43,733 bases of DNA, taken from NCBI GenBank assembly GCA_019637105.1, contig JAHBWF010000056.1, positions 1 through 43,733 of the forward strand. The letters run 5' to 3'. The DNA is from Labilithrix sp. (GTDB lineage Bacteria > Myxococcota_A > Polyangia > Polyangiales > Polyangiaceae). This document shows, in pieces, positions 88 to 14,893 of this stretch. The first letter of the stretch is position 1; every line of letters begins with the position of its first letter. Both the position numbers and the translations under genes were made by a program. The notes below the pieces were generated by a model. That model was not told the origin of the DNA, did not search any database, and was given only the letters and a program-made list of their open reading frames with translations.

Positions 88-1488
88 ATGGCGACCTTCG
101 ATCGAAGCTACGGATACATCGTCGTGCGCGTGGTCTACGACGGCCCATCGGGCGCGGGGAAGACCGCGAACCTGAAGCAGCTCGTTCAAACGTTCTCGGC
201 GCAACGACGCGGCGCGCTCTCGTCACCGCGTCAAGTCGACGAGACGACGGCGTACTTCGACTGGCTCTCCCTCAACGGCGGCGTCGTGGGCGGCTACCCG
301 CTGCGGGCGCAGCTCGTCACGACGCCCGGGCGTGACGCCCTCTCGCGCCGGCGCTGGCACCTGGTCGAGCAGGCCGACGTCATCGTCTTCGTCACGGAGA
401 GCACGCCCGCCGCCCTCAAGGTGGCGCGACGCTCGCTCGAGCTCCTGCGCGTGCGGCTCTCCCGGTCGTCGCTCGGCCCACCGATCATCGTGCAAGCGAA
501 CAAGCAGGACGCCCCGGGCGCGCTCTCCACCGAGGCGATCGCCGACGCGCTCGGCCTGCCGCCGGGCGCCGAGGTCGTGCCCGCGCAGACGTCCGACGGG
601 ATCGGCGTTCGCGAGACCGTGGTCCGCGCCATCCGATGTGCGGCGGCGCTCGCCGATCGAGACGTCGTCGCCCGCGGAGTGGACGCGCTCGACGACACCG
701 AGGACGAGCACGACCTGTTGGGACGGCTGGACGGCTCCACCATGCTCCGCGCGGCGGTCGAGCACGGCGACTTGCCCGCGCTCCCCGACGAGGACGCCGA
801 CGGCCGCGACGTCTGGCCCGAGCGAAGCGGGCGCGCCGTACTCCGCGCGCTGGCGCGCGGGTTCGCCGCCGGCGCGTTCGTCCCGTCGTCCACCTCGCCC
901 GACGCCGTCTCCCTCCGCGCGAGCGGCTTCTTCGTGACCTCCTCGCGCGTCGCCGCCGACGCCGGCCGGGACGAGCTCCGCGCGCGCGCCCGCGCCTTGA
1001 TCCGCCTCGGCGCCCTGAGCACGTCCACGACGCTCGCGATCGCCAGGGCGCCGGGAGCGTGGTCGTGGCTCTGGGCCATCACGCCGTGCGCGAGCACGCT
1101 CGAGGAGCGCCTCGACGCCGCCTGCACGGGCGACGACGAGGCGCGCCTCACCGAGGCGCTCGAGGCGTACGCGCGTGCCCTCGCCGCCGCGCTCGCCCTG
1201 GCGGTCCGCGACGACGTCGGCCTGGACGTCGCTCCCGCGCGCTTCGGCGAGGTCGACGGCCGCGTCGTCTACCTGAGCGATCGCCTCACCGCGCCGTCCG
1301 TCGCGGCCGTGGCGGAGGCCGCGCGCGCGATCCCGGCGCGCTGCGCGCGGTGGCCCGCCGCCGTCGACGCTTATCGGGCCGCGCTCGACGCGACGCTCGC
1401 GCGGCGCGGTCCGCTCCTCGCGCGCGCACGCGCCGAGGTGCTCGCGGGGATCGCCGGCCCGCACCCCTCGCGAGAGCTCGCGTCATGA
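88..1488 (+). CDS. MglA-like small GTPase with ~270-residue C-terminal extension and Arg in place of the switch-II Gln
   Basis: Residues 1-195 form a Ras-like G domain closest to bacterial MglA: P-loop GPSGAGKT (19-26), switch I TTAYFDW (53-59), G3 TTPGRD (78-83) and G4 NKQD (138-141). MglA-type proteins are cytoplasmic GTP/GDP switches controlled by Roadblock partners. Position 82, normally the catalytic Gln of TVPGQ, is Arg, so intrinsic hydrolysis may be weak. The rest (about 200-466) is not a standard GTPase part. It aligns loosely with the extension of the paralogue at 12903 and contains GLDVAPARF followed by DGRVVYLSDRL (378-400), resembling the kinase-like half of the protein at 11348. 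The start is supported by alignment with that paralogue and a GAGG at 79-82. The end overlaps the next gene by ATGA. Confidence 0.88.
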   Translation: MATFDRSYGYIVVRVVYDGPSGAGKTANLKQLVQTFSAQRRGALSSPRQVDETTAYFDWLSLNGGVVGGYPLRAQLVTTPGRDALSRRRWHLVEQADVIVFVTESTPAALKVARRSLELLRVRLSRSSLGPPIIVQANKQDAPGALSTEAIADALGLPPGAEVVPAQTSDGIGVRETVVRAIRCAAALADRDVVARGVDALDDTEDEHDLLGRLDGSTMLRAAVEHGDLPALPDEDADGRDVWPERSGRAVLRALARGFAAGAFVPSSTSPDAVSLRASGFFVTSSRVAADAGRDELRARARALIRLGALSTSTTLAIARAPGAWSWLWAITPCASTLEERLDAACTGDDEARLTEALEAYARALAAALALAVRDDVGLDVAPARFGEVDGRVVYLSDRLTAPSVAAVAEAARAIPARCARWPAAVDAYRAALDATLARRGPLLARARAEVLAGIAGPHPSRELAS

Positions 1489-2330
1489 CGGAGCAGCGGA
1501 TGGTCCGCGCGGTCGGCGCCGGCGCGAGCACCGGGCTGCTCGGGTGGCTCACGCGGCTCGTCGCGGGCAAGGAGCTCTCCGCGCTGCGCGCCCACGTCGC
1601 GGCCCTCTCGGACGAGGCGGCCGGCGCCGCGGAGGCCGCGAGGGCTCACGCGGCGCGGCTGGAGGCTCGGCTCGCCGCGGCGACCGCGGAGCTGCAGGCC
1701 GAACGACGGAGGCGAGAGGAGCTCGAGCGACGGCTCGCCGCTTCCTCGGCCACGCCGGCCGTCGACGAAGAGGCGCTGCTCGCTCCGCTGCGCCTCGAGA
1801 TCGAGCAGCGCGCTCGCGAGCAGAGCGATCTCGAGAAGACGGTCGCGCGGAAGGAGAGCGAGCGACGCGAGGCCACCGCGAAGCTGGCGAGGTCGCAGCA
1901 GGAGCTCGAAGCGCTGGACAAGCGGCTCAAGAAGGCGGAGGCGACCCTGCGGGACTCGACCGCGCAGCTCGCGAGCGCCGAGGAGCGCGCGCGACGGGCG
2001 GAGGGGCGCGCCGGCGACGCGCTCAAGGGGGCGGCGGTACGGTCGCAGGACGCCGCCCGCGAGGTGATGGACCTTCGCCACGAGGTCGCGCAGACGAAGC
2101 GACGGGCAGACGACCTCGCGGCCCTGACGACGCAACGACAGATGGAGATCGCCGCGCGCGACGAGACGATCGCCGCGCTCGAGGATCGCCTCGTCACGGC
2201 GCTCGGCGCCGCGACGTCCGACCCGCTCGCGATCGAGCGCGCGCTTCGCGATCGCGACGCCTTGATCGAGGAGCTGGAGAGCGCGCTCATCTCGATTCGA
2301 ATGACGGACGTCGACGGCACGTCCGCTTGA
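1485..2330 (+). CDS. Coiled-coil protein coupled to the GTPase
   Basis: This 281-residue protein starts at the ATG overlapping the GTPase stop (ATGA), implying translational coupling and probably matched expression. After about 40 residues (a short hydrophobic patch, TGLLGWLTRLV, near 16-26) almost everything is Ala/Glu/Arg/Leu-rich heptad sequence with no Pro or Gly breaks across long stretches, so a long coiled coil is expected. The C-terminus (AIERALRDRDALIEELE) is also helical. There is no enzymatic motif. In the GTPase context it could be an effector, scaffold or localisation factor; that is inference. A much longer open frame begins upstream but only shadows the GTPase. Confidence 0.8.
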   Translation: MTEQRMVRAVGAGASTGLLGWLTRLVAGKELSALRAHVAALSDEAAGAAEAARAHAARLEARLAAATAELQAERRRREELERRLAASSATPAVDEEALLAPLRLEIEQRAREQSDLEKTVARKESERREATAKLARSQQELEALDKRLKKAEATLRDSTAQLASAEERARRAEGRAGDALKGAAVRSQDAAREVMDLRHEVAQTKRRADDLAALTTQRQMEIAARDETIAALEDRLVTALGAATSDPLAIERALRDRDALIEELESALISIRMTDVDGTSA

Positions 2331-2427
2331 TTTCATGTCGACGCGCACGTGCTAGAGGAGGCACTTCATCGGGCTCTCAGCGCGACACAGCACCCTCGAA
2401 AACGTCTAATTCGTTCGTTGATCCGAA

Positions 2428-4728
2428 ATGTACCAGCCGCCGGCCGAGGAGCAGCTCATCGGCATCGCCGACGCCGAACTGCGCGTGGTGAACGCGGATC
2501 CCCGAATGCGGCGGCTGCTCGGCGCGAGCGCGCCGGAGGGTCGATCGCTGCTCGATCTGCTGCCCCCTCCCGCGCATCCGCTCGTGAACCTCGCGGCGTG
2601 CCGCGTCACCGGTCGCGTGGTGCTCCCGTCCTCCGTCGACGACGTGGTCATCGTCGTCCGACCCGCGGCCGTCGGCGACGAGACGTGGCTCTTGCTCTTC
2701 GAGCAGCCCAAGCGGAGGTCGCGACCGCCCCGCTCCGCCGAGCCGTTGCTCGTCGGCCGCCACAACGAGCTGCGCGAGTTCGATCGCTACCTCGCGGAGC
2801 CGAACGGAACCATCCTGTACCTGCAGGGGCCGCTCGGGATCGGCAAGACGGCGCTGCTCACGGCGCTCGCGGCGCGCTGCGACGAGCTCCAGTGCCCGCG
2901 GTTCTGGATCGACGCTCGCTCGCTCCCTCCCACCCAAGATGCCATCGCCCGGATCCTGACCGGCGGCGCAGACCGCAGTCCTCTTCAGCGCGTCGAGGCA
3001 GCGCTCGACCTCGGCGCGCAGCGATGGGTCGTCCTCATCGACAACTTCGACGCCTGGCAGGACCTCGAGACGACCGAGCACCCTTGCGCGCACCTCCCGG
3101 CCGCGTGTCGCGTCGTCGTCGCCTCACGCCACGGCCCCAACCCACGCTACTGGGGGCCGTCGGTGCGCCCCCCGCGCACCACCGACGTCGGCGCGCTCGA
3201 CGAGGCCGCGGCGGCGCAGCTCGTCGCGAGCCTCGGGGTCCCTGCCGAGCGCGCGGGCGAGCTGCTCGCGCAGGCCGCGGGACACCCGCTCTGCATCGTG
3301 ACGCTCGCGAGCGCGCTCCGCGCCGGCAAGTCGTTCGCCGAGGCGGCGCTCCCCCTCGATCCGGACCTGGCGGCCGCCGCGCCTCGGGAGGTGCTCGAGG
3401 TCGCCGCCCTCCCCGCACGGATCACCGAGGACGTGCTCGCCGCCCTCCTCGACGACGTCGACGCGGCCGCGGCCTTCGACGTCCTCGCCACGCTCGCGGT
3501 CCGCGATCCTCACGGGATCGGCCTCCGGATGCCGGTCGTCGTCCGCGAGGCGCTCGCCCGTCGCATCCGCGAGCGCAACCCGGCGCGCTACGCGGAGCTC
3601 GAGCAGCGGCTCGCGCTGTACGTCACGGCGCAGCTCGAGCTCGGGACGGCGTCGCACCTCGTGCCGATCCTCGACGACTTCTTCGATTCGCTCGACGATC
3701 GACTCGCGATCAAGCGCGCGGTCGGCGCGCGCCTCGACGGCCTGCCGGCGTCGCGCCGCGCGCGGGAGGGCGACCGCGCGCCGATCGAGGAGGCCGCGCG
3801 CCTCTTGGGAGGCGACGTCCTCGCGGCGAGCGTCCTCGGACGCCTCGACTGCGACGCCGCGGTCACCTGCGTCGCGGAGGGACCGAGCGGGATCGAGGGC
3901 ATCTGCCAGTACGTGACGCTCTCGTCCACGACGCCGAAGCTCCCCGAGGCCCGCGACGACGCCGAGCTCGGCGCCGCGCTCGACCTCCTCCGCCGCCGGA
4001 CGACCCTCGCGGCCGACGAGTACGCCCTCGTCGTCTTGCTGTGGGCCGCCTCCGACGTCGCGCGAGGTCGCTGGGAGGGGCCCTCGCAGTCGCTCCTCCG
4101 CTACATGTTCCCGATGCTGGTGAGCAGGCCCCAGGCGGCCGTCGCGATCGCGGTCCTCCCCCGCGACCCTCTCCCGCTCCCGGCGCCGGACGTCTGGAGC
4201 GCCGAGCCGGCCGTCACCGTCGGACCGCACACGTTGCTCTATCGGGACCTCCGGGGGCTGACCGCGCGCAGGATCCTCACCGGCCTCCTCGGCTCGAGCG
4301 AGGCCCGCGCGCCGGTCATGTTCCCGGTGCCGCTGCACCTCGAGGCGCAGATATCGTCCGAGACCGTGCGCGAGGCGCTGACGCTCCTCGAGCGCCCCGA
4401 GCGGCTCGTCGGCAGCCAGCTCCTCACACTCCGCAGCGTCGAGGTCGGCGCGGGAGCGAACGCGACCACGACGGACAAGGTCGTCGCCCTGGAGCGGCTG
4501 CTCCGTCAGACGATCACGTCGCTCGGCTCCGGCCGCCGCGAGTCCAAGCAACGCGAGGCGCTCGAGGCGGTCTTCTTCGAGCGAGCGGGCAAGCACGAGA
4601 AGATCGCCGCCGACCTCGGCATGCCGTACAGCACGTTCCGGAGGTGCCTCTCCCGGGGGCTCGAGGGCGTCGCCGAGCTCTTGCGCATGCGCGAGCAGGC
4701 GCTGCGTCGAGCACCAAGTGAGCAGTGA
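2428..4728 (+). CDS. PAS - STAND-type ATPase - HTH transcriptional regulator
   Basis: The 766-residue protein has three parts. Residues about 8-95 look like a PAS sensor domain. Residues about 105-350 are a nucleotide-binding module with Walker A GPLGIGKT (134-141) and Walker B VVLIDNFD (201-208) behind an LVGRHNEL entry, the style of MalT/AfsR-like STAND regulators and ORC-like ATPases. The long helical centre has no motif I recognise. Residues about 714-755 hold a helix-turn-helix (HEKIAADLGMPYSTFRR) like a sigma-70 region-4 fold. The family uses ATP-dependent assembly to switch DNA binding. It sits between the GTPase/coiled-coil pair and the PAS-HTH genes and is a likely controller of the island. 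The 97-base upstream gap contains an A/T-richer patch (2397-2425) but no clear promoter. Confidence 0.82.
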   Translation: MYQPPAEEQLIGIADAELRVVNADPRMRRLLGASAPEGRSLLDLLPPPAHPLVNLAACRVTGRVVLPSSVDDVVIVVRPAAVGDETWLLLFEQPKRRSRPPRSAEPLLVGRHNELREFDRYLAEPNGTILYLQGPLGIGKTALLTALAARCDELQCPRFWIDARSLPPTQDAIARILTGGADRSPLQRVEAALDLGAQRWVVLIDNFDAWQDLETTEHPCAHLPAACRVVVASRHGPNPRYWGPSVRPPRTTDVGALDEAAAAQLVASLGVPAERAGELLAQAAGHPLCIVTLASALRAGKSFAEAALPLDPDLAAAAPREVLEVAALPARITEDVLAALLDDVDAAAAFDVLATLAVRDPHGIGLRMPVVVREALARRIRERNPARYAELEQRLALYVTAQLELGTASHLVPILDDFFDSLDDRLAIKRAVGARLDGLPASRRAREGDRAPIEEAARLLGGDVLAASVLGRLDCDAAVTCVAEGPSGIEGICQYVTLSSTTPKLPEARDDAELGAALDLLRRRTTLAADEYALVVLLWAASDVARGRWEGPSQSLLRYMFPMLVSRPQAAVAIAVLPRDPLPLPAPDVWSAEPAVTVGPHTLLYRDLRGLTARRILTGLLGSSEARAPVMFPVPLHLEAQISSETVREALTLLERPERLVGSQLLTLRSVEVGAGANATTTDKVVALERLLRQTITSLGSGRRESKQREALEAVFFERAGKHEKIAADLGMPYSTFRRCLSRGLEGVAELLRMREQALRRAPSEQ

Positions 4729-4820
4729 TGAGCAGCGATGAGCCAGCGTTTTGCGTGGCGGCAGGTCGCAGGCACGTCAATACTCAGCGGTGGGGCGGGG
4801 GGAAAAGAGAGCGGGGAGTA

Positions 4821-5714
4821 GTGATCAGTTGGCACGCCGTCGCACTTCATTTTGCCGACCGTGGCTACCCCTGCGCACTCCTCGACCGCGACGCCGTCGT
4901 CCGCATGTTCAGCGCTTCGCTCGAGGAGCTCCTCGGGTGGAGACGCGAGGAGGTCGAAGGGAGGCGCTGGGTGGAGGCGATCGCTCCTCCGACGCACGCG
5001 CAGATCGCCGAAGCGCGCATCGATCGCGCGCTCTCCGGCACCCTCCGCACGTTCGACAGCGAGGCCGCGACGCCGAAGAGCGAGCGCTTCCGCTTGCGCC
5101 TCGAGGCCTCCCTCGTCGGCCGCGGCGCCGAGCAAGGGCTGCTCCTGACCGTGACCTCGTCCGAGGCGCTCGAAGCGAGCGGGCCGCTGCTCGAAGACGA
5201 CGTGGACTACGAGATCGTCTCGTCGCTCTCCGACTTCGGGCGCCTCGTGAGCATCACGACGCCGAGCGGCTCGGTGCGGACCGGCGGCAACGCCGTGGAC
5301 TACTGCTACGCGGTCATCCACGGGAACCAGAGCCCGTGCACCGACTGCCCGGCGCTTCAGCCCGGCGCCGACCGGTGGCCCCGCACCGTGGCGCGCCGCG
5401 TCAGCGGCGCCGCCGACCTCTACGAGGTCGTCACCGCGCAGTCGCACGACGACCGCCTCCGCATGAGACTCCGCCGGATCTCCGAGCATACGCTCTGCGC
5501 GATCCAGGAGTCGAAGGTTCGCTCGCTCGCCGACTCCGCCCAGCTCTCCGAACGAGAGCGAACAGTGCTCACCTACCTGCTCATGGGCCGCTCGCTCGCC
5601 GACATCGGCACGATCCTCGGCATCAGCACGCGGACGGTGAAGTTCCACCAGGCCAACGTGCTCGAGAAGCTGGGCGCGGACTCCCGCGCCGACCTCGTCC
5701 GCATCGTCACATAG
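4821..5714 (+). CDS. PAS-like sensor with Cys motif and LuxR-type HTH (paralogue 1)
   Basis: The best start is GTG 4821. From there VISWHAVALHFADRG aligns end-to-end with MDWKAVAELLVERG of the next gene, and GGGGAG lies just upstream. The open frame reaches back to 4725, but those residues look non-coding. With 297 residues, about 10-110 are a PAS fold (ASLEELLGWRREEVEG is the classic PAS helix). A second sensor-like part carries Cys162, His166-Gly and Cys173-x2-Cys176-Pro. Residues about 235-297 are a canonical LuxR/GerE HTH (LSERERTVLTYLLMG, DIGTILGISTRTVKFH). The cysteine pattern resembles those in redox- or metal-responsive PAS sensors; the ligand cannot be read from sequence. No receiver or kinase is attached, so it is probably a one-component regulator. 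Confidence 0.83.
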   Translation: MISWHAVALHFADRGYPCALLDRDAVVRMFSASLEELLGWRREEVEGRRWVEAIAPPTHAQIAEARIDRALSGTLRTFDSEAATPKSERFRLRLEASLVGRGAEQGLLLTVTSSEALEASGPLLEDDVDYEIVSSLSDFGRLVSITTPSGSVRTGGNAVDYCYAVIHGNQSPCTDCPALQPGADRWPRTVARRVSGAADLYEVVTAQSHDDRLRMRLRRISEHTLCAIQESKVRSLADSAQLSERERTVLTYLLMGRSLADIGTILGISTRTVKFHQANVLEKLGADSRADLVRIVT

Positions 5715-5811
5715 GCATCGTCACGCTCACGCGTCGCTGTCCGCCGGGCGAGGGACGCCTGAACGGTCGGCCCGTTGGCGCTCTCGGGGGCTCTAGTGGA
5801 TAGGACACGTC

Positions 5812-6675
5812 ATGGATTGGAAGGCCGTCGCGGAGCTGCTCGTCGAGCGGGGTGCACCGATCATCGTCGTGGACCGCGCCCTCCGCGTCGAGATGATCGA
5901 CGAGCGACTGACGCAGCTCCTCGAGCTGGACCGAGGCGCGATCCTCGGCGCGCCCATCGACGACGGATCGAGGATCGAACCGCTCCGCGCGCTCGCGGCC
6001 CGCGCGCGGGACGGCCCCGTGACGGCCTCGTGCACCATCGTCACGTCGCGCGGCGATCGGGTCGAGCTCCAGGTCGAGGCCACCCACGCAGGCAGCGGAC
6101 GGACCGCCGCGACGATGCTCGTCGTGGTCGCAGCCGTCGTGCGCGCGCCTCCTTCGGTCGAGCCGCGGCCGTCGGCGTTCGAATACGAGATCGGCGCGGC
6201 CCTCTCGCCCTTCGGCCGCCTCCGCCGCCTCGCGCTGGGGCACGAGACGCGGCACTACTGGTTCGGCGACGCGCCTCGGTGTCACGAGGTGCTCCACTCA
6301 TGCCCAACCCCGTGCGCGGACTGCCCTGCGCTCCGCGTCCGGCACCCGTTCCCCGTCACCGTCCGCGACCGGCGGCCGGGGCGCTACGAGGTGCTGCGCG
6401 CGGAGGGCTCCGCCGAGGGGACCGTCCGCGTCGACGTCCGTCTGGTGCCCCGCGACCACGTCGTCACGGTCCACCGCGCGCGGCTGAACCGCGCGATGGC
6501 GGCGGCGCGGCTGAGCCCGTACGAGCGCGCGGTGCTCGTCGCCCTCGGCGAGTCGGCCGTCTCCATCGCGGCGGCGCACGGGACCTCCCCCGGTCACGTG
6601 AGGCGCCATCAGGTCGCCGCGCTCCGCCGGCTCGGCGCGAGCGGCCGAGCGGACCTGCTCTGCCTCTTGCTCTGA
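5812..6675 (+). CDS. PAS-like sensor with Cys motif and diverged LuxR-type HTH (paralogue 2)
   Basis: This 287-residue paralogue of the preceding gene has the same layout: N-terminal PAS-like domain (1-115), a cysteine segment, then an HTH (about 228-287). The cysteines are Cys157, Cys164, Cys168 and Cys171-Pro, with PCADCPAL matching PCTDCPAL of paralogue 1, and His163 matching its His. The HTH keeps LSPYERAVLVAL and VRRHQVAALRRLGA but the recognition helix differs strongly (TSPGHVRRHQ), so it should bind another site or have lost DNA binding. AGGA at 5802-5805 is a suitable ribosome binding site. The pair arose by tandem duplication and diverged; they may act on different promoters or as a hetero-pair. 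Confidence 0.82.
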   Translation: MDWKAVAELLVERGAPIIVVDRALRVEMIDERLTQLLELDRGAILGAPIDDGSRIEPLRALAARARDGPVTASCTIVTSRGDRVELQVEATHAGSGRTAATMLVVVAAVVRAPPSVEPRPSAFEYEIGAALSPFGRLRRLALGHETRHYWFGDAPRCHEVLHSCPTPCADCPALRVRHPFPVTVRDRRPGRYEVLRAEGSAEGTVRVDVRLVPRDHVVTVHRARLNRAMAAARLSPYERAVLVALGESAVSIAAAHGTSPGHVRRHQVAALRRLGASGRADLLCLLL

Positions 6676-6821
6676 GCTCGGCGTCTTGCTCCGAAGCGGA
6701 ACGTACGCGCGTGTGCGGGCGAGCGCGCACGACTCGACCTGCCTGGCGAGACAGGGCGCGCACGTCCATCGGACAGTATCGGGAGCGCCCGTTCGCGCCG
6801 ACACTCGGTCGTCCACGCGCG

Positions 6822-7877
6822 ATGCCCGACGGTCCCAGCGAGCTCATCGAATTCAAGGCGAAACTCGCCTCGCTCGCGGACCGCGTCCTCGCGGTCGACA
6901 TCCGCGCCTACGAGTCGATGCCGCCCGACCAGCTGGCCTCCGAGCTGCAGCCCGTCGTGACCGAGCTCCTCACCGCCGCGAACGCGCTCATCGCCGACGT
7001 CCTCGACGCGTACGGGAACGTCCGCGTCGAGGCGGAGCCGGGGGCGGCCGGGGCCGGCGCGCTCTCGTCCCCCTACGCCGTCTTCGAGCACGCCATCGAC
7101 GCCGCGATCGCCGCGCAGACGACGTCCTCCCTCCAGGCCGTCGGCGACATCGCGTTCCTCGCGCACCTCGAGCTCCGCCAGCGCGCCGCGCGCCTCGAGC
7201 ACGTGACGTGGTGCCGGAGCGCCATCGCGATCGTCGGCGAGTGCGACAGCGCCCTCCGGCGGGTGCGCAAGGCGCTGACGTCGATCGACGTCGCGTTCGC
7301 GCGCGCGGGCATCGGCGAGGCCACGTTCGACTTCGCGTCGGAGCTCGAGGTCTCGCTCCGCGTCCGGCGCGCCTGCGCGAAGCTCCGCGGGCGCGTCCTC
7401 GCGGCCGCGGAGCCCTCCGAGGAGACGCTCTACGTCCGCCTCCGCTCCGCGGGGACGGCGATCGCGATGCTCGTGGGCTGGGAGGTCTACCCGAGCCTGC
7501 GCGTCCGCGATCGGCTCCAGCTCCGCGAGCTGCAGCGACGGATCCTCGACTGGCTGCGCCAGGACAAGGATCCGACGGCGGGCCTCCGGCTCTGGCAAGA
7601 CCTCGTCACGTTCATCCGGATGCTCTCGCAGGTGAACCGGCGGCAGGAGCTCGTCGAGCACGACACGCGGACCGTGCTCGAGCTGGCCGACCGCCTCGCG
7701 ACGGTCGAGCGAGAGTCTCTGTCGGACGACGCGCTCGACCTGCTGGCGTCGCTCGAGGGGCTCGACGACGAGGTGGACCAGCTCCTCGCCTCTCGGAGCC
7801 GCTCGCTCCGCGACGCCTGGCGCGAGCCGATCGCCCGCCTCGCGCGCACGCTCCGCGGCCCCGGAGCCGCGCGATGA
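6822..7877 (+). CDS. All-helical protein of unknown function
   Basis: This 351-residue protein has no domain I recognise. It is soluble, Leu/Ala/Arg/Glu-rich and apparently all-helical, without signal peptide, membrane segments, nucleotide motifs or cysteine pairs. The stretch around residues 205-275 (many Trp, Tyr and basic residues, including LRLWQDLVTFIRMLSQ) is the least repetitive and probably the folded core. ATG 6822 has no convincing ribosome binding site. The 146-base gap before it lies between the PAS-HTH genes and the overlapping chain, so this gene probably heads the second transcription unit. The next gene overlaps by ATGA, indicating coupled translation with the DUF4388-Roadblock protein. 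Confidence 0.72.
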   Translation: MPDGPSELIEFKAKLASLADRVLAVDIRAYESMPPDQLASELQPVVTELLTAANALIADVLDAYGNVRVEAEPGAAGAGALSSPYAVFEHAIDAAIAAQTTSSLQAVGDIAFLAHLELRQRAARLEHVTWCRSAIAIVGECDSALRRVRKALTSIDVAFARAGIGEATFDFASELEVSLRVRRACAKLRGRVLAAAEPSEETLYVRLRSAGTAIAMLVGWEVYPSLRVRDRLQLRELQRRILDWLRQDKDPTAGLRLWQDLVTFIRMLSQVNRRQELVEHDTRTVLELADRLATVERESLSDDALDLLASLEGLDDEVDQLLASRSRSLRDAWREPIARLARTLRGPGAAR

Positions 7878-9139
7878 GGATCGATCCCTCCCCGCTCGAC
7901 ACGCTCCGCGCGATCGCCGAACGCGGCGGCACGGGGGAGTTCATCTGCGCGTCCTCCACCGTCGAGGTGCACGTCTACCTCCAACGCGGGCGCCTGGCGT
8001 GGGCCACCGACTCGGAGCACCCGTTCGCGTTCACACGACACCTGCAGCGATCCTCGCAGATCGACGGGGAGTCGTTCCGTGACATCCTCGACTCGTGCCG
8101 GCGCGAGAGGCGCCCGCTCGGCGAGACGCTGGTCAGCTGGGGCGTGGCCACGTGGGACGAGGTCCGCGACGCCCTCCGACACCAGCTCGCGCTCGCGCTC
8201 GCGGTCCTGCGCGGCGGGGGCCCCGCCCAGACGCTCTTCCTCGACCGAACCGAGCAGTTCGCGAAGTACGAGCCGAGGCTCACCTTCGACGTCGCGGAGA
8301 TGCTCGCGGATCACGAGGGCTCGTCGCGCGCCGCTCCACGGACCGACGCCGGCGAGGGCGCGCGATCGGCTCCGCGCGGGAGCCTCGCGGGCCGCCTGCT
8401 CGACGCCGCCGACGGGATCCTCTGGGCGCAGACGCTCGACGGCACGAACGTCGCGGAGTCGGCGCCCGAGCCGGCGGAGCGAGCGCGCTTCGAGACCGAC
8501 ATCGTCCGTGGGACGGTCCTCGACGGCGCGGAGCTCGTGACCCTGCGCGCGCCCGAGGGGACGCTCGCGGGCGTCGCCCTCGACGCCTCGCGCTCGCTCT
8601 GGTGCCGCCTGACGACCGAGGCCACGGTAGGCGCGGCGATCTCGGCGCTGTCGGGGTTCGCCGCGAGCGAGCGCGCCTCGAGCGACGTCACCGGCGCGGG
8701 GCCGGTCGGCGCGCCGTGGGTCGTGGGCGCCCACGTGCCGGTGGTCCGCGACCTCGAGGACTTCCTCGGGCGAGCGCCCGAGACGCTCGCGGCGCTCATG
8801 ACGGATCTCGACGGAGGTTCGTGGTCGTGCGGCGCCGGCGCGTCGCTCGCGTCCGAGTACGCGTTCGAGCTCGCGCGCCGCCGGGCGCACGTCCTCGCGT
8901 CCCCGTCGCCGTTCGGCGCGGACGACGCCCCTCCCGCCGCCGACGACGTCGACCTCTCCTCCCGGAGCATGCTCACCCGCGAGCGCACCGTCTGGTGCTT
9001 CGGCGCCGAGCTCGACGCTCGGCCGCGCAAGATCCTCTGGCTCCTCTTGCACCGGCAGAGCTCGCAGGGGCTCGGGTGGGCGTACCTCACCTCGCTGAGC
9101 CGGCGGCTCATGCACGCCCGAGGCTGGCGCGATGGCTGA
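7874..9139 (+). CDS. DUF4388-like N-terminus with C-terminal Roadblock/LC7-like domain
   Basis: This 421-residue protein opens with a DUF4388 (PATAN)-like module, residues about 1-135: GTGEFICASS, VYLQRGRLAWA and GVATWDEVRDALRHQ are its typical pieces. A middle region (about 165-265) has an alternating beta pattern. The end (about 300-415) looks like a Roadblock/LC7 fold: RQSSQGLGWAYLTSLSRRL matches KKSTNQGMGWAALRSSLS at the end of the small Roadblock protein at 10941. DUF4388 occurs in bacterial signalling proteins, including those of myxobacteria, and Roadblock proteins are the usual partners of MglA GTPases. It overlaps both neighbours (ATGA upstream, 8 bases downstream), so it is co-translated with the helical protein and the ABC-phosphatase fusion. 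Confidence 0.78.
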   Translation: MRIDPSPLDTLRAIAERGGTGEFICASSTVEVHVYLQRGRLAWATDSEHPFAFTRHLQRSSQIDGESFRDILDSCRRERRPLGETLVSWGVATWDEVRDALRHQLALALAVLRGGGPAQTLFLDRTEQFAKYEPRLTFDVAEMLADHEGSSRAAPRTDAGEGARSAPRGSLAGRLLDAADGILWAQTLDGTNVAESAPEPAERARFETDIVRGTVLDGAELVTLRAPEGTLAGVALDASRSLWCRLTTEATVGAAISALSGFAASERASSDVTGAGPVGAPWVVGAHVPVVRDLEDFLGRAPETLAALMTDLDGGSWSCGAGASLASEYAFELARRRAHVLASPSPFGADDAPPAADDVDLSSRSMLTRERTVWCFGAELDARPRKILWLLLHRQSSQGLGWAYLTSLSRRLMHARGWRDG

Positions 9140-10523
9140 CGGCGCTCCGATCCTCCGGCTGCGAGGCTTCGGCGTCGCCTTCAACGGGACGCCGGTCCTC
9201 GCCGACGTGGACCTCGATCTGGCCGAGACGGGCCTCGTCGTCCTCGTCGGGCCGGCGAGCTCGGGCAAGTCGACGCTCCTCCGCACGCTGGCCGGAGTGA
9301 ACGACGCCCACCCGTCGCTGTCCACGTGGGGCGTCGCCGAGCTCGACGGCTCGCCGCTCAGGGACGGCGGCCGCCAGCGCGCCCGCGCGGGGCGTGGGAT
9401 CGGGCTCGTCATGCAGCACTCGAGGTTCTTCATGAACACGGTGCGCGAGAACCTCGTCTCTGCGCTGCCCAACCGCGGTCGCCTCGAGCGCGCGGCTCAG
9501 ACCGAGCTCGCGCGCTCGCTGCTGCGGGGCAGCGGGTTGTCCGAGCTCGCCGAGATGCTCGAGGCCGAGGTGGTGTCGCTCCCCCAGCCGGTGCAGCGGA
9601 TGCTCGCGATCGTGCGCGCGACCGCGATCGATCCCCTCGTGCTGCTCGCCGACGAGCCGACGAGCGGGCTCGACGACGAGGCGGCGATCGACGTGATCGC
9701 GCTGCTCCGCGGACAGGCCACGTCGCGCGCGGTCCTGTTCATCACCCACAACCAGCGCCACGCGCTCGCCGCGGGCGGCTCGACGTGCCTGCTCGCCGGA
9801 GGGAGGATCGTCGAGGTCGCCCCCACGTCGCGCTTCTTTCGCGCCCCCGCGACCGAGCTCGGCGAGCGCTTCGTCGCGACCGGGAGCTGCCCGCTGCCGA
9901 GCCCCGGCGCGGAGCTCGCCGATCTGTCCGAGGAGTCGCCGCGGCCGCCTCCGCTGTCGCCGGCCGCGAAGGCGGCGGCGGAGCGCAAGGTCGGCCCGCG
10001 CGGCTTCTTCTGGATCGTCGCCGGCCGGCTCGGCGGGCTGCCGCGCCCGGGGATCATCGCCGAGCTCGAAGACGACCTCGAAGGCCTGCGCGAGATCGGC
10101 GTGAACGTCCTCGTCACCCTCGAGGAGAGCCTCACCGTTCCGCCCGCGCGGCTCCGCGAGGTCGGCGTCACCTCGATCCACTTCCCCGTCCCCGACATGG
10201 GCGCGCCCGACGTCGCGCCGACCGCCGACCTCTGCGCCGACGTCGAGGCGCTCCTCTCCCGCGGGCAGGTCGTCGCCTTCCACTGCCGCGCCGGGCTGGG
10301 ACGGACGGGGACCTTGCTCGCCTGTCAGCTCATCTGGAGCGGCGACCGAGCCATCCGCGCGATCGAGCGCGTCCGTCAGATCAACCCGCGCTGCATCCAG
10401 TCCGACGAGCAGGTCGCGTTCCTGCGCGCGTTCGAGGAGGCCGCCTCCGCGCCCAACAGCATCCCGCCGCAACCCTCACGATCCATCGATACCCCAAAAA
10501 GGAGAGAACCCCATGTCGCTTGA
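9132..10523 (+). CDS. Degenerate ABC ATPase fused to DUSP23-like dual-specificity phosphatase
   Basis: Residues 5-230 are an ABC-type ATPase with intact Walker A GPASSGKST (40-48), Q-loop Gln95, Walker B LVLLADEPTSGLD (169-181) and H-loop His206. The LSGGQ signature is replaced by SLPQPV (149-154), and no permease is nearby. Residues about 285-435 are a phosphatase domain very like human DUSP23: GRLGGLPRPG, general-acid loop VPDMGAPD (Asp355) and P-loop HCRAGLGRTG with Cys385 and Arg391. The phosphatase active site looks complete. The likely role is nucleotide-gated dephosphorylation of a protein in the island rather than transport; that is inference. Both halves lie in one uninterrupted frame. 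The gene overlaps its neighbours by 8 and 11 bases. Confidence 0.9.
   Translation: MADGAPILRLRGFGVAFNGTPVLADVDLDLAETGLVVLVGPASSGKSTLLRTLAGVNDAHPSLSTWGVAELDGSPLRDGGRQRARAGRGIGLVMQHSRFFMNTVRENLVSALPNRGRLERAAQTELARSLLRGSGLSELAEMLEAEVVSLPQPVQRMLAIVRATAIDPLVLLADEPTSGLDDEAAIDVIALLRGQATSRAVLFITHNQRHALAAGGSTCLLAGGRIVEVAPTSRFFRAPATELGERFVATGSCPLPSPGAELADLSEESPRPPPLSPAAKAAAERKVGPRGFFWIVAGRLGGLPRPGIIAELEDDLEGLREIGVNVLVTLEESLTVPPARLREVGVTSIHFPVPDMGAPDVAPTADLCADVEALLSRGQVVAFHCRAGLGRTGTLLACQLIWSGDRAIRAIERVRQINPRCIQSDEQVAFLRAFEEAASAPNSIPPQPSRSIDTPKRREPHVA
10496..10506 (+). promoter_or_regulatory. Very strong ribosome binding site for the first small Roadblock gene
   Basis: AAAAAGGAGAG lies six bases before ATG 10513 and inside the end of the ABC-phosphatase gene. 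It is the longest Shine-Dalgarno match in the island, where most other genes rely on stop-start overlap. This suggests the small Roadblock protein is made in excess over its upstream neighbours. Confidence 0.7.
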
Positions 10524-10917
10524 TACCGCGCTCGCCAAAGCCCAGCAGATCGTCCCCGAATGCGTCGCTGCCGGCTACGTCGACATGAGCACCGGGATGC
10601 TGCTCGGAGTGAAGACCGTCGACTCGCATCCCCAGGAGGTCCTCGACCTCGTCGCCGCCGCGACGGCGGACCTCTTCCAGGGACAGAGCGTCACGGCGAT
10701 CGAGAAGCTGTTCCGCCGTTCGCGCGGGCAAGCGGAGGACGGCAGCCACTACTTCAAGGAGATCGTCGTCTTCAGCGAGAACCTGATCCACGTCTTCCTC
10801 CGGTCGAAGAAGAAGCGCGATCAGTCGGCGGTCTTCGTGTGCCGCGGCTCGGCCAACATCGGGATGGTCATCGCGAAGACGCGCTCCTCGCTCGCCGAGA
10901 TCGAGGGCGCGGCCTGA
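10513..10917 (+). CDS. Stand-alone Roadblock/LC7-family protein (copy 1)
   Basis: The 134-residue protein has the size and alpha/beta order of the Roadblock/LC7 family: an N-terminal helix, AGYVDMSTGMLLGV as paired strands (about 20-34), a long Ala-rich helix (about 41-65), then strands and a final helix ending IGMVIAKTRSSLAEIE. Family members form homodimers and act as GAPs or platforms for MglA/Arf-like GTPases (MglB in Myxococcus). It has no signal peptide or catalytic motif. It is a clear paralogue of the next gene and of the C-terminus of the protein at 7874. Two GTPases in the same island are the obvious partners. The gene overlaps the upstream gene by 11 bases. Confidence 0.82.
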   Translation: MSLDTALAKAQQIVPECVAAGYVDMSTGMLLGVKTVDSHPQEVLDLVAAATADLFQGQSVTAIEKLFRRSRGQAEDGSHYFKEIVVFSENLIHVFLRSKKKRDQSAVFVCRGSANIGMVIAKTRSSLAEIEGAA

Positions 10918-10930
10918 GCCGAGACGCAGA

Positions 10931-10938
10931 GGAGGAAG
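10931..10938 (+). promoter_or_regulatory. Strong ribosome binding site for the second small Roadblock gene
   Basis: GGAGGAAG ends two bases before ATG 10941 and gives its GGAGG core five bases of spacing. It is a near-perfect Shine-Dalgarno site and, like that of the preceding small gene, stronger than those of the enzyme genes around it. Confidence 0.65.
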
Positions 10939-10940
10939 AC

Positions 10941-11345
10941 ATGGCCAGCACACAAGAGATCTGCAAGGGGACGCTCGAGAAGGTGGACGACTGCCTCGCC
11001 ATCGGCGTCGTCGACCTCAACACCGGCATGTTGATGGGCGTTCACCACGTCGTGCCGTACTTCACCCAGGCGTACCTCGACGCCGTCGCCGCCGCGGCCG
11101 TCGAGATGTTCCGCGGCAAGACCGTGCGGAGGATCGAGGAGCTGCTCAGCGCGCAGCGCGGCGAGCAGCTCAAGGACAGCTTCGAGGAGGTCTTCATCTC
11201 GTCGCCGAAGACGTTCCACTTCATGACGGTGATCAAGGACAAGGGCGCGGTCGTCGTCATGATCACGAAGAAGTCCACCAACCAGGGTATGGGGTGGGCG
11301 GCCCTCCGCAGCAGCTTGTCGGCGGTCAAGGCGACCCTCCCCTGA
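10941..11345 (+). CDS. Stand-alone Roadblock/LC7-family protein (copy 2)
   Basis: This second 134-residue Roadblock paralogue shares the strand pair IGVVDLNTGMLMGV (with DxxTGML, as copy 1), the Ala-rich helix followed by FRGKTVRRIEELL, and the end NQGMGWAALRSSLSAVK. It differs from copy 1 in charge and in the exposed helix, so the two could form a heterodimer or serve different GTPases. The upstream gap to copy 1 is 23 bases. The next gene starts at GTG 11348, two bases after this stop. The family role is structural or GAP-like toward small GTPases; the specific partner here is inferred from context only. Confidence 0.82.
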   Translation: MASTQEICKGTLEKVDDCLAIGVVDLNTGMLMGVHHVVPYFTQAYLDAVAAAAVEMFRGKTVRRIEELLSAQRGEQLKDSFEEVFISSPKTFHFMTVIKDKGAVVVMITKKSTNQGMGWAALRSSLSAVKATLP

Positions 11346-11347
11346 CC

Positions 11348-12901
11348 GTGGACTGGTTCCCGCGACCCGCGCGCGTGGCGGACGTCGAGCTCGTCGGTCC
11401 GTCCGAGGAGCTCGACGCCGAGGCGCTGTTCCGCCTGCTCACGGCCGCGGACGCGCGCGAGTGGCCGCACAAGGTCGGCGTCGCCGGCCGGAGCGAGGGG
11501 TCGGCGAAGCCCACGACGAGGCTGCTCGCCTCCCGGGGCATCGTGTTCAAGACCAACCTCGCGGAGGTCTCGCCTTCGCGGGAGGCGGCCCTCGCCCGGG
11601 TCGAGCGCGCGCGGGAGCTCGGCGCGCGCGCGCGCGTGTGGCACCCCTCGAAGCGGTGGGCGCTGATGCGGATCGGCGACGGGTGGCTCCCGCTCACCGC
11701 TTGCCGCGAGCTGCGGACGCTGCGCACGATCGAGCTCCTCGCGGACCGGCTCCGGGCCTGGACCGCGATGCTCGACCTCGGTCTGGAGGTCCAGCGCCGC
11801 TGCGGGCTGGGCCTCGACCTCAACCCTGCGAACTTCGCGCTCGAGGACGGCCGCGAAGACCTCCACTACCTCGACGACGAGCTGTACGCGCGCCTCGAGC
11901 CGCGCCAGCTCGCGTTCGCCGCCGCCGCTCGTATCCCGGAGGAGCCCGACGCGGAGGAGGCGACCTGGTACGGGTGGGGACGCGACGTGGGGCTCGCCCT
12001 GGACCGTCGCGGCGTCTCCGACGAGGAGCGCGACGTCGTCGTCGGCGAGGCGCTGGGCTACCCGCTCGCGGAGACCTTCGAGCCGAGGCGGGCGGCGCTC
12101 GTCGCCGGCCTCCGGGCGGAGCGGCCCACGGTGCGCCTCGGCCGGCGGTCGTTCGGACGCTCGGAGCGGGTCTGCCTCCTCGCCGACGTCCACGCGAACC
12201 TGCCGGCGCTCGAGGCCGTGGTCGCGGCGGCGCGCGATCTCGGCGCGACCTCGTTCCTCTTCCTCGGCGACGCCGTCGGCTACGGCCCTCACCCCGCCGA
12301 GTGCGTCGCGCGGCTCGCCGAGCTCGGGGGGATCTCGATCCGGGGCAACCACGACCACGCGATCGCGACCGGCGAGCTCGACGTGGGGATGAACCGGCTC
12401 GCGCGGACGTGCGCGGAGTGGACACGCGGGCGCCTCGGGCGCGCCGAGGTCGAGTGGCTCGATTCGCTTCGGCCCGATCACCGCGACGGAGAATGGATGG
12501 CCGTGCACGGCGCGCCGCGCGATCCGAAGCGCTTCTTCGCGTACGTCTACGACCTCACCTACGAGGACAACCTCGACCACATGGAGCGCGAGGGCGTCGC
12601 CGTCTGCTTTCATGGGCACACCCACGTCCCCCTCGTGCACACGGAGCTCCCGTCGGGTCGCGCCAAGCTGACCGCCCCTCGCCACCTGACGCTGGACACG
12701 CGGAGACCGACCCTCGTGAACCCCGGCTCCGTGGGGCAGCCGCGGGACGGCGACCCGCGCGCGGCCTTCGCCGTGTGGGACCGGGCGACCTCGCGCGTCT
12801 CGTTCGAGCGCGCGGCCTACGACCTCGCGCGCACGCTCGCCGACATCCGGCGCGAAGGTTTGCCCGTCGAGCTCCTGTCGCGCCTGGAGAGAGGAGCCTG
12901 A
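11348..12901 (+). CDS. Kinase-like N-terminal module fused to calcineurin-like metallophosphoesterase
   Basis: The preferred start is GTG 11348, two bases after the Roadblock stop; the frame extends to 11294 but only inside that gene. The 517-residue product has two halves. Residues about 40-200 look like a protein-kinase/APH-like fold, with IVFKTNLAEV (possible ATP-site Lys), GLDLNPANF as catalytic-loop analogue (155-163) and LHYLDDEL as metal-loop analogue (170-177). Residues about 273-480 are a YfcE/MJ0936-like phosphoesterase with DVH (280-282), GDAVGYG (Asp308), GNHD (333-336), VHG (His387) and GHTH (423-426), all metal ligands present. It may phosphorylate and dephosphorylate the same target, or hydrolyse a small phosphodiester. 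The kinase half is a weaker call. Confidence 0.85.
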   Translation: MDWFPRPARVADVELVGPSEELDAEALFRLLTAADAREWPHKVGVAGRSEGSAKPTTRLLASRGIVFKTNLAEVSPSREAALARVERARELGARARVWHPSKRWALMRIGDGWLPLTACRELRTLRTIELLADRLRAWTAMLDLGLEVQRRCGLGLDLNPANFALEDGREDLHYLDDELYARLEPRQLAFAAAARIPEEPDAEEATWYGWGRDVGLALDRRGVSDEERDVVVGEALGYPLAETFEPRRAALVAGLRAERPTVRLGRRSFGRSERVCLLADVHANLPALEAVVAAARDLGATSFLFLGDAVGYGPHPAECVARLAELGGISIRGNHDHAIATGELDVGMNRLARTCAEWTRGRLGRAEVEWLDSLRPDHRDGEWMAVHGAPRDPKRFFAYVYDLTYEDNLDHMEREGVAVCFHGHTHVPLVHTELPSGRAKLTAPRHLTLDTRRPTLVNPGSVGQPRDGDPRAAFAVWDRATSRVSFERAAYDLARTLADIRREGLPVELLSRLERGA

Positions 12902-12902
12902 G

Positions 12903-14318
12903 ATGCCTCGCATCGACGAACGGAGCGGGGACATCATCATCCGCATCGTCTACGACGGCATGCCCGAGGCGGGGAAGACGACCAACATCCACCAGCTCTT
13001 CGCCTCGATCCCGCTCCAGCGGCGCGGCGACCTCGCGAGCCCCGACACCACCGGACGGCGGACGGAGTTCTTCGACTGGCTCGATTTCTCGGGTGGGTTC
13101 GTCGACGGCCGCCGCGTTCGCTGCCAGGTCGTGAGCGTCCCCGGGCAACCGCAGCTCCTCCATCGACGCACGTACCTGATCGAGACCGCCGACGTGGTCG
13201 TGTTCGTCGCCGACTCACGAAAGGAGAGCGTCGAGCAGAACCGCGAGAGCGTCAGCGACCTGGTCGGCCTGCTCCACCGCTTCGCCCCCACGCTCGCCGC
13301 CGCCGTCGTCGTCCAGGCGAACAAGCAGGACCTGCCGGGCGCGCTCCGCCCGCGCACGCTCGCGGCGCAGCTCGAGGTCCCGCTGACGGCGCCGGTGATC
13401 CCCGCCGTCGCGCACGCAGGCCGCGGCGTGCTGGACACCTTCATCCTCGCGGCGCGGCTCGCGACCGATCGCGTCCGCGCGCTCGTCGTCGGCGGGACCG
13501 AGCTCTCGCCCCTGACCGAGGACCAGTCGTCGGCGAACGCCCTCCACGTCGCGATGGTCGCGCTCGAGGACGCGAGGTCGACGATCGCGCCGCGCCGCGC
13601 CGTCGGACACGAGGCCGCGCTCGCGCTCGTCCGACGGCGCGCGAACGACGTAGAGACCGCGCGCGCCTGCGAGATTCCGCGGCCGGAGGCGCTCCTCGCG
13701 GGTCACGTCTGGCCACCGGTGAAGGGGCGCGCCGCGGTCGCGGCGGCGATGACGGGCGACTTGGAGGTCCCCGACCACGCCGCCGACTGGGCGCCGGACG
13801 CCCCGATCGAGATCGGGCTCGAAGGCGGCTGGACGCTGCATTCGTCGGCGCGCTGGACCTTCCCGAGCGAGTCCCACGCCCGGGCGGACCTCCTCGCCGT
13901 CGTGCGACGGCTCCTCGCGACGCCCGAGCTCGTCCCCGAGGGGCGCGCGATGCTCATCGCGCCGGACTCCGGCGCCTTTCGCCTCTGGATGTTGACCCCG
14001 CCGCTCGCGCCGCTCGCGGCGCGACTGCTGGAGGCCCTCGTCCGACGCGACGTGACCGCGACGGCCGCGGTGCTCGACGACGCGGCGCGCGCGCGGACCT
14101 CGCTCGTCGCGGCTCGCGGCGACGCGCGCGCTCCGGGAGGCTCGGCGGGCGTCGCCTTGCAGGAGCAGCGCGTCGTCGTCCTCGCCGCGACGGACGGGGG
14201 CGAGCCGGTCGACGAGCACCTCGCGGCGCTGGCTCGCCGGGTCGGAGAAGGAGACGCGGAGGCTGCCTTGGTCATGACGAAGGCGGAGCAGCTCTCCGGC
14301 CGGTGGCGCGGCCCATGA
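12903..14318 (+). CDS. MglA-like small GTPase with C-terminal extension, canonical switch-II Gln
   Basis: This 471-residue paralogue of the GTPase at 88 is alignable without gaps through switch II: P-loop GMPEAGKTT (19-27), switch I TEFFDW (54-59), G3 SVPGQ with Gln82, G4 NKQD (140-143) and G5-like PAVAHAGRGV. Unlike its partner it keeps the catalytic Gln, so it should hydrolyse GTP. The extension (about 200-471) shares blocks with the other copy, for example VWPPVKGRAAV against VWPERSGRAVL and FRLWMLTPPLAP against WSWLWAITPCAS, but lacks the GLD-x2-PA motif. It begins two bases after the phosphoesterase stop and overlaps the membrane protein gene by ATGA. It is probably the switch protein of the operon with the Roadblock proteins. 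Confidence 0.88.
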   Translation: MPRIDERSGDIIIRIVYDGMPEAGKTTNIHQLFASIPLQRRGDLASPDTTGRRTEFFDWLDFSGGFVDGRRVRCQVVSVPGQPQLLHRRTYLIETADVVVFVADSRKESVEQNRESVSDLVGLLHRFAPTLAAAVVVQANKQDLPGALRPRTLAAQLEVPLTAPVIPAVAHAGRGVLDTFILAARLATDRVRALVVGGTELSPLTEDQSSANALHVAMVALEDARSTIAPRRAVGHEAALALVRRRANDVETARACEIPRPEALLAGHVWPPVKGRAAVAAAMTGDLEVPDHAADWAPDAPIEIGLEGGWTLHSSARWTFPSESHARADLLAVVRRLLATPELVPEGRAMLIAPDSGAFRLWMLTPPLAPLAARLLEALVRRDVTATAAVLDDAARARTSLVAARGDARAPGGSAGVALQEQRVVVLAATDGGEPVDEHLAALARRVGEGDAEAALVMTKAEQLSGRWRGP

Positions 14319-14893
14319 GCGTCACGACTCGTGACTGGAGGAGGACGATGCGCGTAGGGCTTCGAGCGATCGCGGCGCCGTCGTGGGCGGTGCTGGGTGT
14401 CGTCGTCCTCCTCGTCGAGTCCGTCGTCCGACTCGGCAGCGTCGCGATCGCCGGCATCGTAGGCGGACTCCGTCCGCACGAGTGGGCGGCGCTGGCGGCG
14501 GGGATCGCCGTCATGGGTTACGTCGAGGGCTATCGCACGTTCTCGCGGTCGTTCGGTCCGCGCGTCGTGGAGCGCTCGTTCGAGCTCGCGGGGGCGCGTC
14601 CCGCGCTCTACGTGGCCCTCGGTCCGCTCTACGCGATGTCGCTGGTGGGCGATACACGTCGGAGGATGGCGAAGAGCTGGGCGCTCGTCGCCGCCATCGT
14701 GGCGATCGTCGTCGCCGTCCGGAGCCTGCCGCCGACGTGGCGCGGCATCGTCGACGCATCGGTAGCGCTCTCGCTCTCCTGGGGCGTCGTGGCCCTCTGC
14801 GCGCAGTGGCTGTCGCGCCTGCGGCGCGAGCTCGACCGCCGCGCGGCGGACGCCGCACCGCGGCCGCGCTCGACGCCGGGGCGCCCCGCGTAG
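14315..14893 (+). CDS. Inner-membrane protein with about five hydrophobic segments
   Basis: ATG 14315 overlaps the GTPase stop (ATGA); ATG 14348 is a possible later start. The 192-residue product has hydrophobic segments near residues 20-40, 55-75, 98-113, 123-140 and 147-168 and a basic, Pro/Arg-rich tail. The block GYRTFSRSFGPRVVERSFEL followed by LGPLYAMSLV and RRMAKSW resembles a family of uncharacterised proteobacterial membrane proteins. As the last gene of the island it could be the membrane anchor or output for the GTPase, which is inference. A weak GC hairpin (14908-14924) without a T-run follows. Confidence 0.78.
   Translation: MSVTTRDWRRTMRVGLRAIAAPSWAVLGVVVLLVESVVRLGSVAIAGIVGGLRPHEWAALAAGIAVMGYVEGYRTFSRSFGPRVVERSFELAGARPALYVALGPLYAMSLVGDTRRRMAKSWALVAAIVAIVVAVRSLPPTWRGIVDASVALSLSWGVVALCAQWLSRLRRELDRRAADAAPRPRSTPGRPA

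Follow-up and report, generated by a model that had tools for sequence, protein, structure and literature searches.

Polarity control and conservons are the main settings in which Ras-like GTPases of bacteria have become known. The MglA/MglB(/MglC) systems of Myxococcus xanthus and Thermus combine an MglA-type Ras-like GTPase with Roadblock-fold partners, and the actinobacterial conservons (CvnA-D) unite a GTPase, a Roadblock protein and a phosphorylation enzyme in one operon, as stated in excerpts of PMC4316618 and PMC13343842. Here we analyzed a stretch of 43,733 nucleotides from Labilithrix sp., a relative of the myxobacteria (contig JAHBWF010000056.1 of assembly GCA_019637105.1; in its full length the "window"). 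Positions 88 to 14893 harbor a block with two MglA-like GTPases (G1, G2), two stand-alone Roadblock proteins (RbA, RbB), a fusion of an ATP-binding cassette (ABC) ATPase with a dual-specificity phosphatase (DSP; ABC-DSP), a kinase-fold/phosphoesterase fusion, regulators and a membrane protein. It is in our view evenly balanced whether this block represents a signalling module of the cytoplasm, with an MglA-type GTP switch that the Roadblock proteins set or read and that determines how a kinase and two phosphatases are balanced against each other.

The block shares with MglA/MglB(/MglC) the MglA-type GTPase and the Roadblock-fold partners, and its two Roadblock paralogues recall MglB and MglC. 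In contrast to MglA/MglB, its GTPases carry long C-terminal extensions, a kinase-fold domain, a phosphoesterase and the ABC-DSP protein are added, and the genome possesses a separate MglA-like/Robl_LC7 pair. The conservons resemble the block in linking GTPase, Roadblock and phosphorylation enzyme, at least as portrayed in the above-mentioned excerpts, but no histidine kinase family was detected by Pfam in the 13 block proteins, which contain another kinase fold and phosphatases instead. The block works like other GTPase-Roadblock switches, and it is neither a conservon nor an MglA/MglB polarity system as these are defined. An earlier reading of this DNA made from the letters alone (the original prediction) was aware of no described pathway having this complement, and among the matches listed from the open full-text literature, as represented by excerpts and with subscription papers outside its scope, no description of this gene complement was found. 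The 13 genes are the following.

88..1488, plus strand: G1, MglA-like GTPase with a degenerate kinase-fold C-terminus, 466 aa (PDB match to MglA; kinase hidden Markov model, HMM)
1485..2330, plus strand: coiled-coil-like protein, 281 aa (codon phase; weak matches below cut-off; orthologues in L021 and L023)
2428..4728, plus strand: STAND-like ATPase with a possible C-terminal helix-turn-helix, 766 aa (AAA_16 5e-05, below cut-off; orthologues in L021 and L023)
4725..5714, plus strand: PAS-LuxR regulator 1 (GerE 5e-18, PAS_4 8e-08)
5812..6675, plus strand: diverged relative of regulator 1 (GerE 0.006, below cut-off; cross-matches of about 30% to regulator 1)
6822..7877, plus strand: HYP, conserved protein of no known family (Pfam matches no better than chance; found at most 5 kb from RbA in 9 of 80 loci)
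7874..9139, plus strand: DUF4388-like protein, C-terminal Roadblock suggestive only (Pfam, hhalign)
9132..10523, plus strand: ABC-DSP, fusion of ABC ATPase and dual-specificity phosphatase (Pfam: ABC_tran 5e-17, Tc-R-P 7e-22)
10513..10917, plus strand: RbA, stand-alone Roadblock protein, the most conserved marker (fold model, profile scan)
10941..11345, plus strand: RbB, second stand-alone Roadblock protein (hhalign to RbA; orthologues 75-97% identical)
11348..12901, plus strand: fusion of a kinase-fold domain (residues about 1-268) with a calcineurin-type phosphoesterase (fold model; match to 3rqz)
12903..14318, plus strand: G2, MglA-like GTPase with intact catalytic motifs and an extended tail (PDB match to MglA; motifs)
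14303..14893, plus strand: small membrane protein, 196 aa, possible anchor (hydrophobic segments; orthologues in L022, L023 and L024; no Pfam family)

The co-directional GTPase-Roadblock-phosphatase set from 88 to 14893 was thus recovered with 13 genes according to codon-phase analysis and open reading frame calls, two of which, the coiled-coil-like protein (1485-2330) and the family-less conserved protein (6822-7877), had not been named in the original prediction. Between 6822 and 14893 no junction exceeds an overlap of 16 bp or a gap of 23 bp, which is the spacing expected of a putative operon; before 6822, two junctions overlap by 4 bp and the others have gaps of 97, 97 and 146 bp. Some gene starts differ between the final gene finder and the coordinates listed, and single calls in relatives may be wrong.

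The order of all 13 genes is identical in the two other genomes of the genus that possess ABC-DSP (12 searched): G1, coiled-coil-like, STAND-like, LuxR1, LuxR2, HYP, DUF4388-like, ABC-DSP, RbA, RbB, kinase-phosphoesterase, G2 and membrane protein. At a threshold of E 1e-40, ABC-DSP is present in 14 of the 145 genomes searched and in three of the 13 genomes of the genus, with the own genome counted in both. RbA and RbB are 91-97% identical across the genus orthologues and the other block proteins 46-78%; retention of a 13-gene order in two other genomes at 46-97% protein identity is more than chance. The left border of the block is invisible, because the window begins 87 bases before the first gene. 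The two genes to the right of 14893 were not found beside the block in the two relatives, of which right flanks of about 11 kb and 4.9 kb were covered.

A profile scan of GTDB contigs with RbA retrieved 386 relatives, and our neighborhood counts refer to the best 80 of these matches, which stem from Myxococcota, Pseudomonadota, Planctomycetota and Acidobacteriota. Clusters taken from these very loci, chosen regardless of distance, served to build the neighborhood HMMs. Within 5 kb of RbA the ABC domain is present in 72 and the DSP domain in 70 of the 80 loci, both together in 69 and always on the same strand, and several loci lacking DSP end near RbA. An MglA-type GTPase is found at the same distance in 36 loci, a second Roadblock protein in 30 and the combination of ABC, DSP, GTPase and second Roadblock in 27. 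RbA and ABC-DSP therefore represent the constant heart of these loci and the GTPase a frequent second layer. The nearest matches in the ring from 5 to 10 kb number zero or one per family and five for a globin family, a count which comprises only loci whose nearest match lies there, several loci being cut by contig ends. Seen from the ABC-DSP side, RbA adjoins at 15 of 17 places, the exceptions being L033 and L035. At E 1e-10, RbA is present in 29 of 377 drawn Myxococcota genomes. The synteny check proposed with the original prediction accordingly revealed a neighborhood that is conserved in the genus and beyond, and not homologues scattered without shared surroundings. Its focus on Myxococcota turned out to be too narrow, since the RbA/ABC-DSP core reaches from this phylum to Comamonas, Polaromonas, Pseudomonas and Planctomycetales, and its GTPase-centered perspective has to be shifted to the ABC-phosphatase as the most constant partner of RbA.

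The Roadblock nature of RbA was missed by Pfam and by PDB sequence searches, hence a fold model was needed. The model, with a predicted local distance difference test score (pLDDT) of 82.9, matches Roadblock structures of MglB, MglC and Ragulator with a template modelling (TM) score of about 0.7 to MglB. Neither RbA nor RbB has a meaningful Pfam match, and none to Robl_LC7. RbB is a paralogue of RbA (hhalign E 1.8e-20) and possesses the Roadblock fold by homology, so that both stand-alone Roadblock proteins of the original prediction are corroborated. The third candidate, a proposed DUF4388-Roadblock protein (7874-9139), is DUF4388-like with 18.4 bits versus a Pfam cut-off of 25, and the Roadblock assignment of its C-terminus is suggestive only, with an hhalign probability of 46% and E 2e-4 against RbB and no hhalign match to RbA.

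Pfam detected both domains of the predicted ABC-phosphatase fusion (9132-10523), and its DSP part matches 25xa (2e-23) and DUSP23 by sequence. In an alignment of the window protein with 45 of 67 cluster members, picked by length, the GK of Walker A, the Q-loop, the DE of Walker B, the H-loop and HCxxGxGRTG are invariant in all 46 sequences, which all contain the catalytic DSP signature CX5R, and the LSGGQ signature was found in none of them. Pfam scans of the 13 block proteins revealed no permease family and a single small membrane protein without family; on these two grounds an ordinary ABC transporter was rejected. DUSP23-like phosphatases of the Pfam families Tc-R-P (PF22785) and PTP-SAK (PF22784) share the DSP domain with an intact HCxxGxGRTG motif, but the block protein differs in the fusion to an ABC ATPase without LSGGQ and in its position next to RbA. 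The paper naming Tc-R-P and PTP-SAK may already describe the ABC-DSP fusion. Very large ABC/DSP-containing or neighboring proteins (560-1963 aa) are located upstream of RbA in L053, L058, L061 and L099; in L058 and L061 the ABC matches number two or more.

Both GTPases that the original prediction placed at the block ends have MglA of T. thermophilus as their best PDB sequence match (E 4e-22 for G1, 88-1488; E 2e-26 for G2, 12903-14318). The P-loop and NKxD, here in the form NKQD, are present in both, and G2 additionally retains the Arg finger and PGQ. In G1, Thr replaces the Arg finger and Arg the Gln of PGQ (Ala and Arg in the two same-genus orthologues). Lacking both residues, G1 is therefore predicted to bind but not to hydrolyze GTP, and the two-GTPase picture of the original prediction has to be corrected in that G1 looks incapable of hydrolysis. 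Residue roles in GTPase, kinase and ABC motifs are used here as generally established. The C-terminus of G1 scores 96 bits with our kinase-domain HMM, to whose training set it did not belong. Tails of related G2 proteins match the model weakly (25-36 bits), and no match of the window G2 tail reaches E 1e-3. The own genome contains six MglA-like matches, two inside the window and four outside on contigs C2, C35, C257 and C18 (stretches L165, L164, L166, L167; L178). The gene on C2 adjoins a Robl_LC7 gene, and the C35 stretch also harbors a strong relative of the DUF4388-like window protein on the opposite strand. In Myxococcales bacterium 68-20 (L038, 12396-13930) a G2 relative is split into two overlapping pieces in different frames, reflecting a frameshift or an assembly error.

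The kinase-like/phosphoesterase fusion (11348-12901) could likewise be substantiated. Its N-terminal domain has no convincing Pfam or PDB sequence match, but the kinase fold emerges from the model (pLDDT 89.8) and from matches to kinase-superfamily structures; the second half was recognized as Metallophos by Pfam and matches 3rqz with E 9e-46. The beta-3 Lys, the catalytic-loop Asp and Asn and the metal-binding Asp, with roles assigned from the alignment, are all in place. The kinase HMM was trained on eight sequences, themselves among its matches. Five loci have the kinase domain fused to the phosphoesterase and four have it fused to MglA; the tenth locus is cut. The phosphoesterase is found in all ten loci with an intact kinase domain and in none of the four with degenerate copies only (L040, L042, L066, L174). 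L025 and L042 are located on one contig, which was counted once; L038 and L040 belong to one genome, and the window, L023 and L038 to one genus.

The module occurs in two arrangements. Form I (window, L023, L038, L039, L046) comprises HYP, DUF4388-like, ABC-DSP, RbA, RbB, a kinase-phosphoesterase chain and MglA; Form II (L071, L097, L106, L115) comprises an RbB-type protein, RbA, an MglA-kinase chain, phosphoesterase and ABC-DSP. A DUF4388 gene follows RbA in L071, L097 and L106, the RbB-type domain of L097 and L106 is fused to the preceding receiver/DUF4388 protein, and the L088 relative of this protein carries Response_reg and DUF4388. In the RbA tree (134 columns, L023 left out), Form I (window, L038, L039, L046) and Form II together with four other sequences are located in separate clades with supports of 98/86 and 96/92. 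Within the Form II clade, L113 has MglA and ABC-DSP and lacks both the kinase domain and the phosphoesterase; contig ends truncate L062 and L088. L171 exhibits the Form II order with kinase, phosphoesterase and ABC-DSP; no RbA match was found on its contig of 13 kb, whose end falls within the kinase gene. We interpret the two forms as re-fusions of one set of parts, and this speaks in favor of GTPase, kinase and phosphoesterase forming a functional unit. Roco proteins such as LRRK2 likewise combine, within a single polypeptide, a Ras-like GTPase with a kinase fold, comparable to the MglA-kinase chain of Form II and, in a degenerate version, to G1. Their GTPase, however, differs from the MglA type found here, and no LRR or COR family was detected in Pfam scans of G1 and G2; the resemblance is likely convergent.

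Many beta- and gamma-proteobacterial loci belong to the 22 of 80 in which a small GTPase of the MglA3 HMM is located beside RbA and ABC-DSP. Two members lack the NKxD lysine, and a DAR motif is readable in this group; from its sequence the MglA3-type GTPase looks like the Group 3 MglA of beta- and gamma-proteobacteria, as characterized in excerpts of Wuichet and Sogaard-Andersen (2014; PMC4316618). The proteobacterial RbA/ABC-DSP loci often adjoin such a GTPase, a second Roadblock protein and a Pfam-less protein, the latter of which may be the receiver/winged-helix partner mentioned in these excerpts. The excerpts name neither an ABC-phosphatase nor RbA, however, and the window GTPases, which keep NKxD, are not of the Group 3 type that lacks its lysine.

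Further neighbors of RbA were recorded in other lineages. DSP, RbA, the ABC protein and two dynamin-like genes adjoin in the alpha-proteobacterial loci L080, L098 and L111. On a plasmid of Ruegeria sp. THAF33 (L168), four dynamin-family genes surround an RbA relative of 44% identity, and genes for a Ser/Thr kinase, an FHA protein and a PP2C phosphatase come next. In 26 of 80 loci (e.g., L085, L070) RbA has a ferredoxin/(reductase)/truncated-globin protein no more than 5 kb away, often accompanied by CxxCxxCC or CDGSH proteins, hinting at a link to oxygen, NO or redox state.

The regulators corresponded to the original prediction in part. PAS-HTH applies to 4725-5714 (GerE, PAS_4); 5812-6675 has no Pfam PAS match and a GerE match below cut-off, and it is called PAS-LuxR because of its similarity of about 30% to regulator 1. 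The proposed PAS-STAND protein (2428-4728) is STAND-like at scores that miss the Pfam cut-offs, and the scan revealed no PAS domain in it. Directly right of the block (window 15016-17291) Pfam identified Memo-like and thioesterase-like genes, which were not found beside the block in the two relatives. Farther right the neighbors are ordinary: among ten proteins scanned between 19864 and 41491 are a cytochrome c-like protein, HlyD, MFS, AcrB-type efflux, beta-lactamase-fold and AraC regulator proteins and a MetE-like methionine synthase.

Parts, folds, motifs and conserved linkage of the module are established. In the signalling reading, G2 would be the cycling GTPase with RbA and RbB as its partners, acting like GTPase-activating proteins or guanine nucleotide exchange factors, and its GTP state, tuned by them, would set the activity of the kinase. 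G1 would remain GTP-loaded as a scaffold or reference, and its degenerate kinase-fold tail may dock onto or activate the intact kinase of 11348-12901; in the Form II lineage this kinase sits on MglA itself. The attached phosphoesterase and DSP would be the erasers of phosphate, and the ABC part, with no recognized permease and no LSGGQ, may gate the phosphatase with energy from ATP, RbA being its closest partner. The PAS-LuxR and STAND-like proteins would supply sensing and output. We count the kinase, FHA and PP2C genes near the RbA relative on the Ruegeria plasmid in favor of this reading. The coupling of a GTP switch to reversible phosphorylation, as originally proposed, is supported in part by the kinase fold, by its fusion to MglA or phosphoesterase and by the joint occurrence of intact copies with the phosphoesterase, and it remains a prediction from sequences and models. 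A more far-reaching version is possible, if leaning to the doubtful side: an undescribed, widespread architecture in which a Ras-like MglA GTPase is physically joined to a kinase, to a phosphoesterase acting in opposition and to an ABC ATPase which is governed by a Roadblock protein and gates a DSP. The kinase would have moved between GTPase and phosphoesterase and left pseudokinase docking tails, and one GTPase of the pair in the window genus would be frozen in the GTP-bound state.

Several observations weigh against the signalling module. No MglA-type GTPase was found within 5 kb in 44 of 80 RbA loci, and it is therefore not obligatory locally. The kinase domain (first HMM) and the phosphoesterase are present within 5 kb of RbA in only four and seven of the 80 loci, respectively, and phosphoesterase relatives without nearby kinase domain or RbA exist (L175-L177). 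The split of ten of ten versus zero of four has a chance of 1 in 1001 if the loci are independent, which these 14 are not, and the nearest structural neighbors of the kinase domain include small-molecule kinases, in an alignment with VIA-align that covers only chains ranked by Foldseek.

The strongest rival, which we consider unlikely but well worth weighing, regards RbA plus ABC-DSP as the true unit, an ATP-gated phosphatase whose ATPase is directly regulated by the Roadblock protein, with GTPases, kinases and dynamins as interchangeable local clients and no central GTP switch. It would account for the predominance of ABC plus DSP (69 of 80) over the MglA-type GTPase (36 of 80), for the adjacency of RbA to ABC-DSP at 15 of 17 places and for the occurrence of DSP as a gene of its own in the alpha-proteobacterial loci L080, L098 and L111. 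However, in three genomes the window GTPases keep strict co-linearity with the core, MglA-type GTPases recur beside it in distant lineages, and the GTPase search in the other 44 loci was limited to 5 kb. The small-molecule kinases among the structural neighbors would fit a kinase that phosphorylates a metabolite on which phosphoesterase and DSP act in turn, i.e., a GTPase-controlled metabolic or second-messenger cycle instead of protein phosphorylation. We regard this as improbable, given that the DSP resembles protein phosphatases such as DUSP23, and that PRPK and protein kinases occur in the same structural list with Z scores differing by less than 2.

The homologies to MglA and Roadblock proteins could also reflect an additional polarity or motility switch paralogous to MglA/MglB. 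Yet the genome has another MglA-like gene adjoining Robl_LC7 on C2, no motility gene was recognized in the block by the Pfam scans and RbA lacks a Robl_LC7 match, which renders this explanation very improbable. A role in phage defense or another biological conflict deserves equally little credence. The patchy presence in the genus (three of 13 genomes at E 1e-40), the STAND-like protein, the dynamin-like neighbors in alpha-proteobacteria and PADLOC matches of the ABC-DSP ATPase part to mad3 (1e-15) and mad8 (4e-10) are in line with it, but these matches concern the shared ATPase part, no nuclease or recognized toxin domain appeared in the Pfam scans, and RbA evolves slowly. PADLOC, applied to ten of the 13 proteins, returned apart from mad3 and mad8 only weak HTH matches and no system-specific one, and the defense reading was rejected.

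If the signalling reading is true, the conserved association of a GTPase with Roadblock proteins, a kinase-fold domain and two phosphatase types would document the control of phosphorylation by a GTP switch in bacteria. With the MglA-kinase fusions, the control of a kinase by a GTPase could be studied in a compact system, and the slow-evolving RbA, which is present in culturable bacteria, would be a practical handle for pull-downs.

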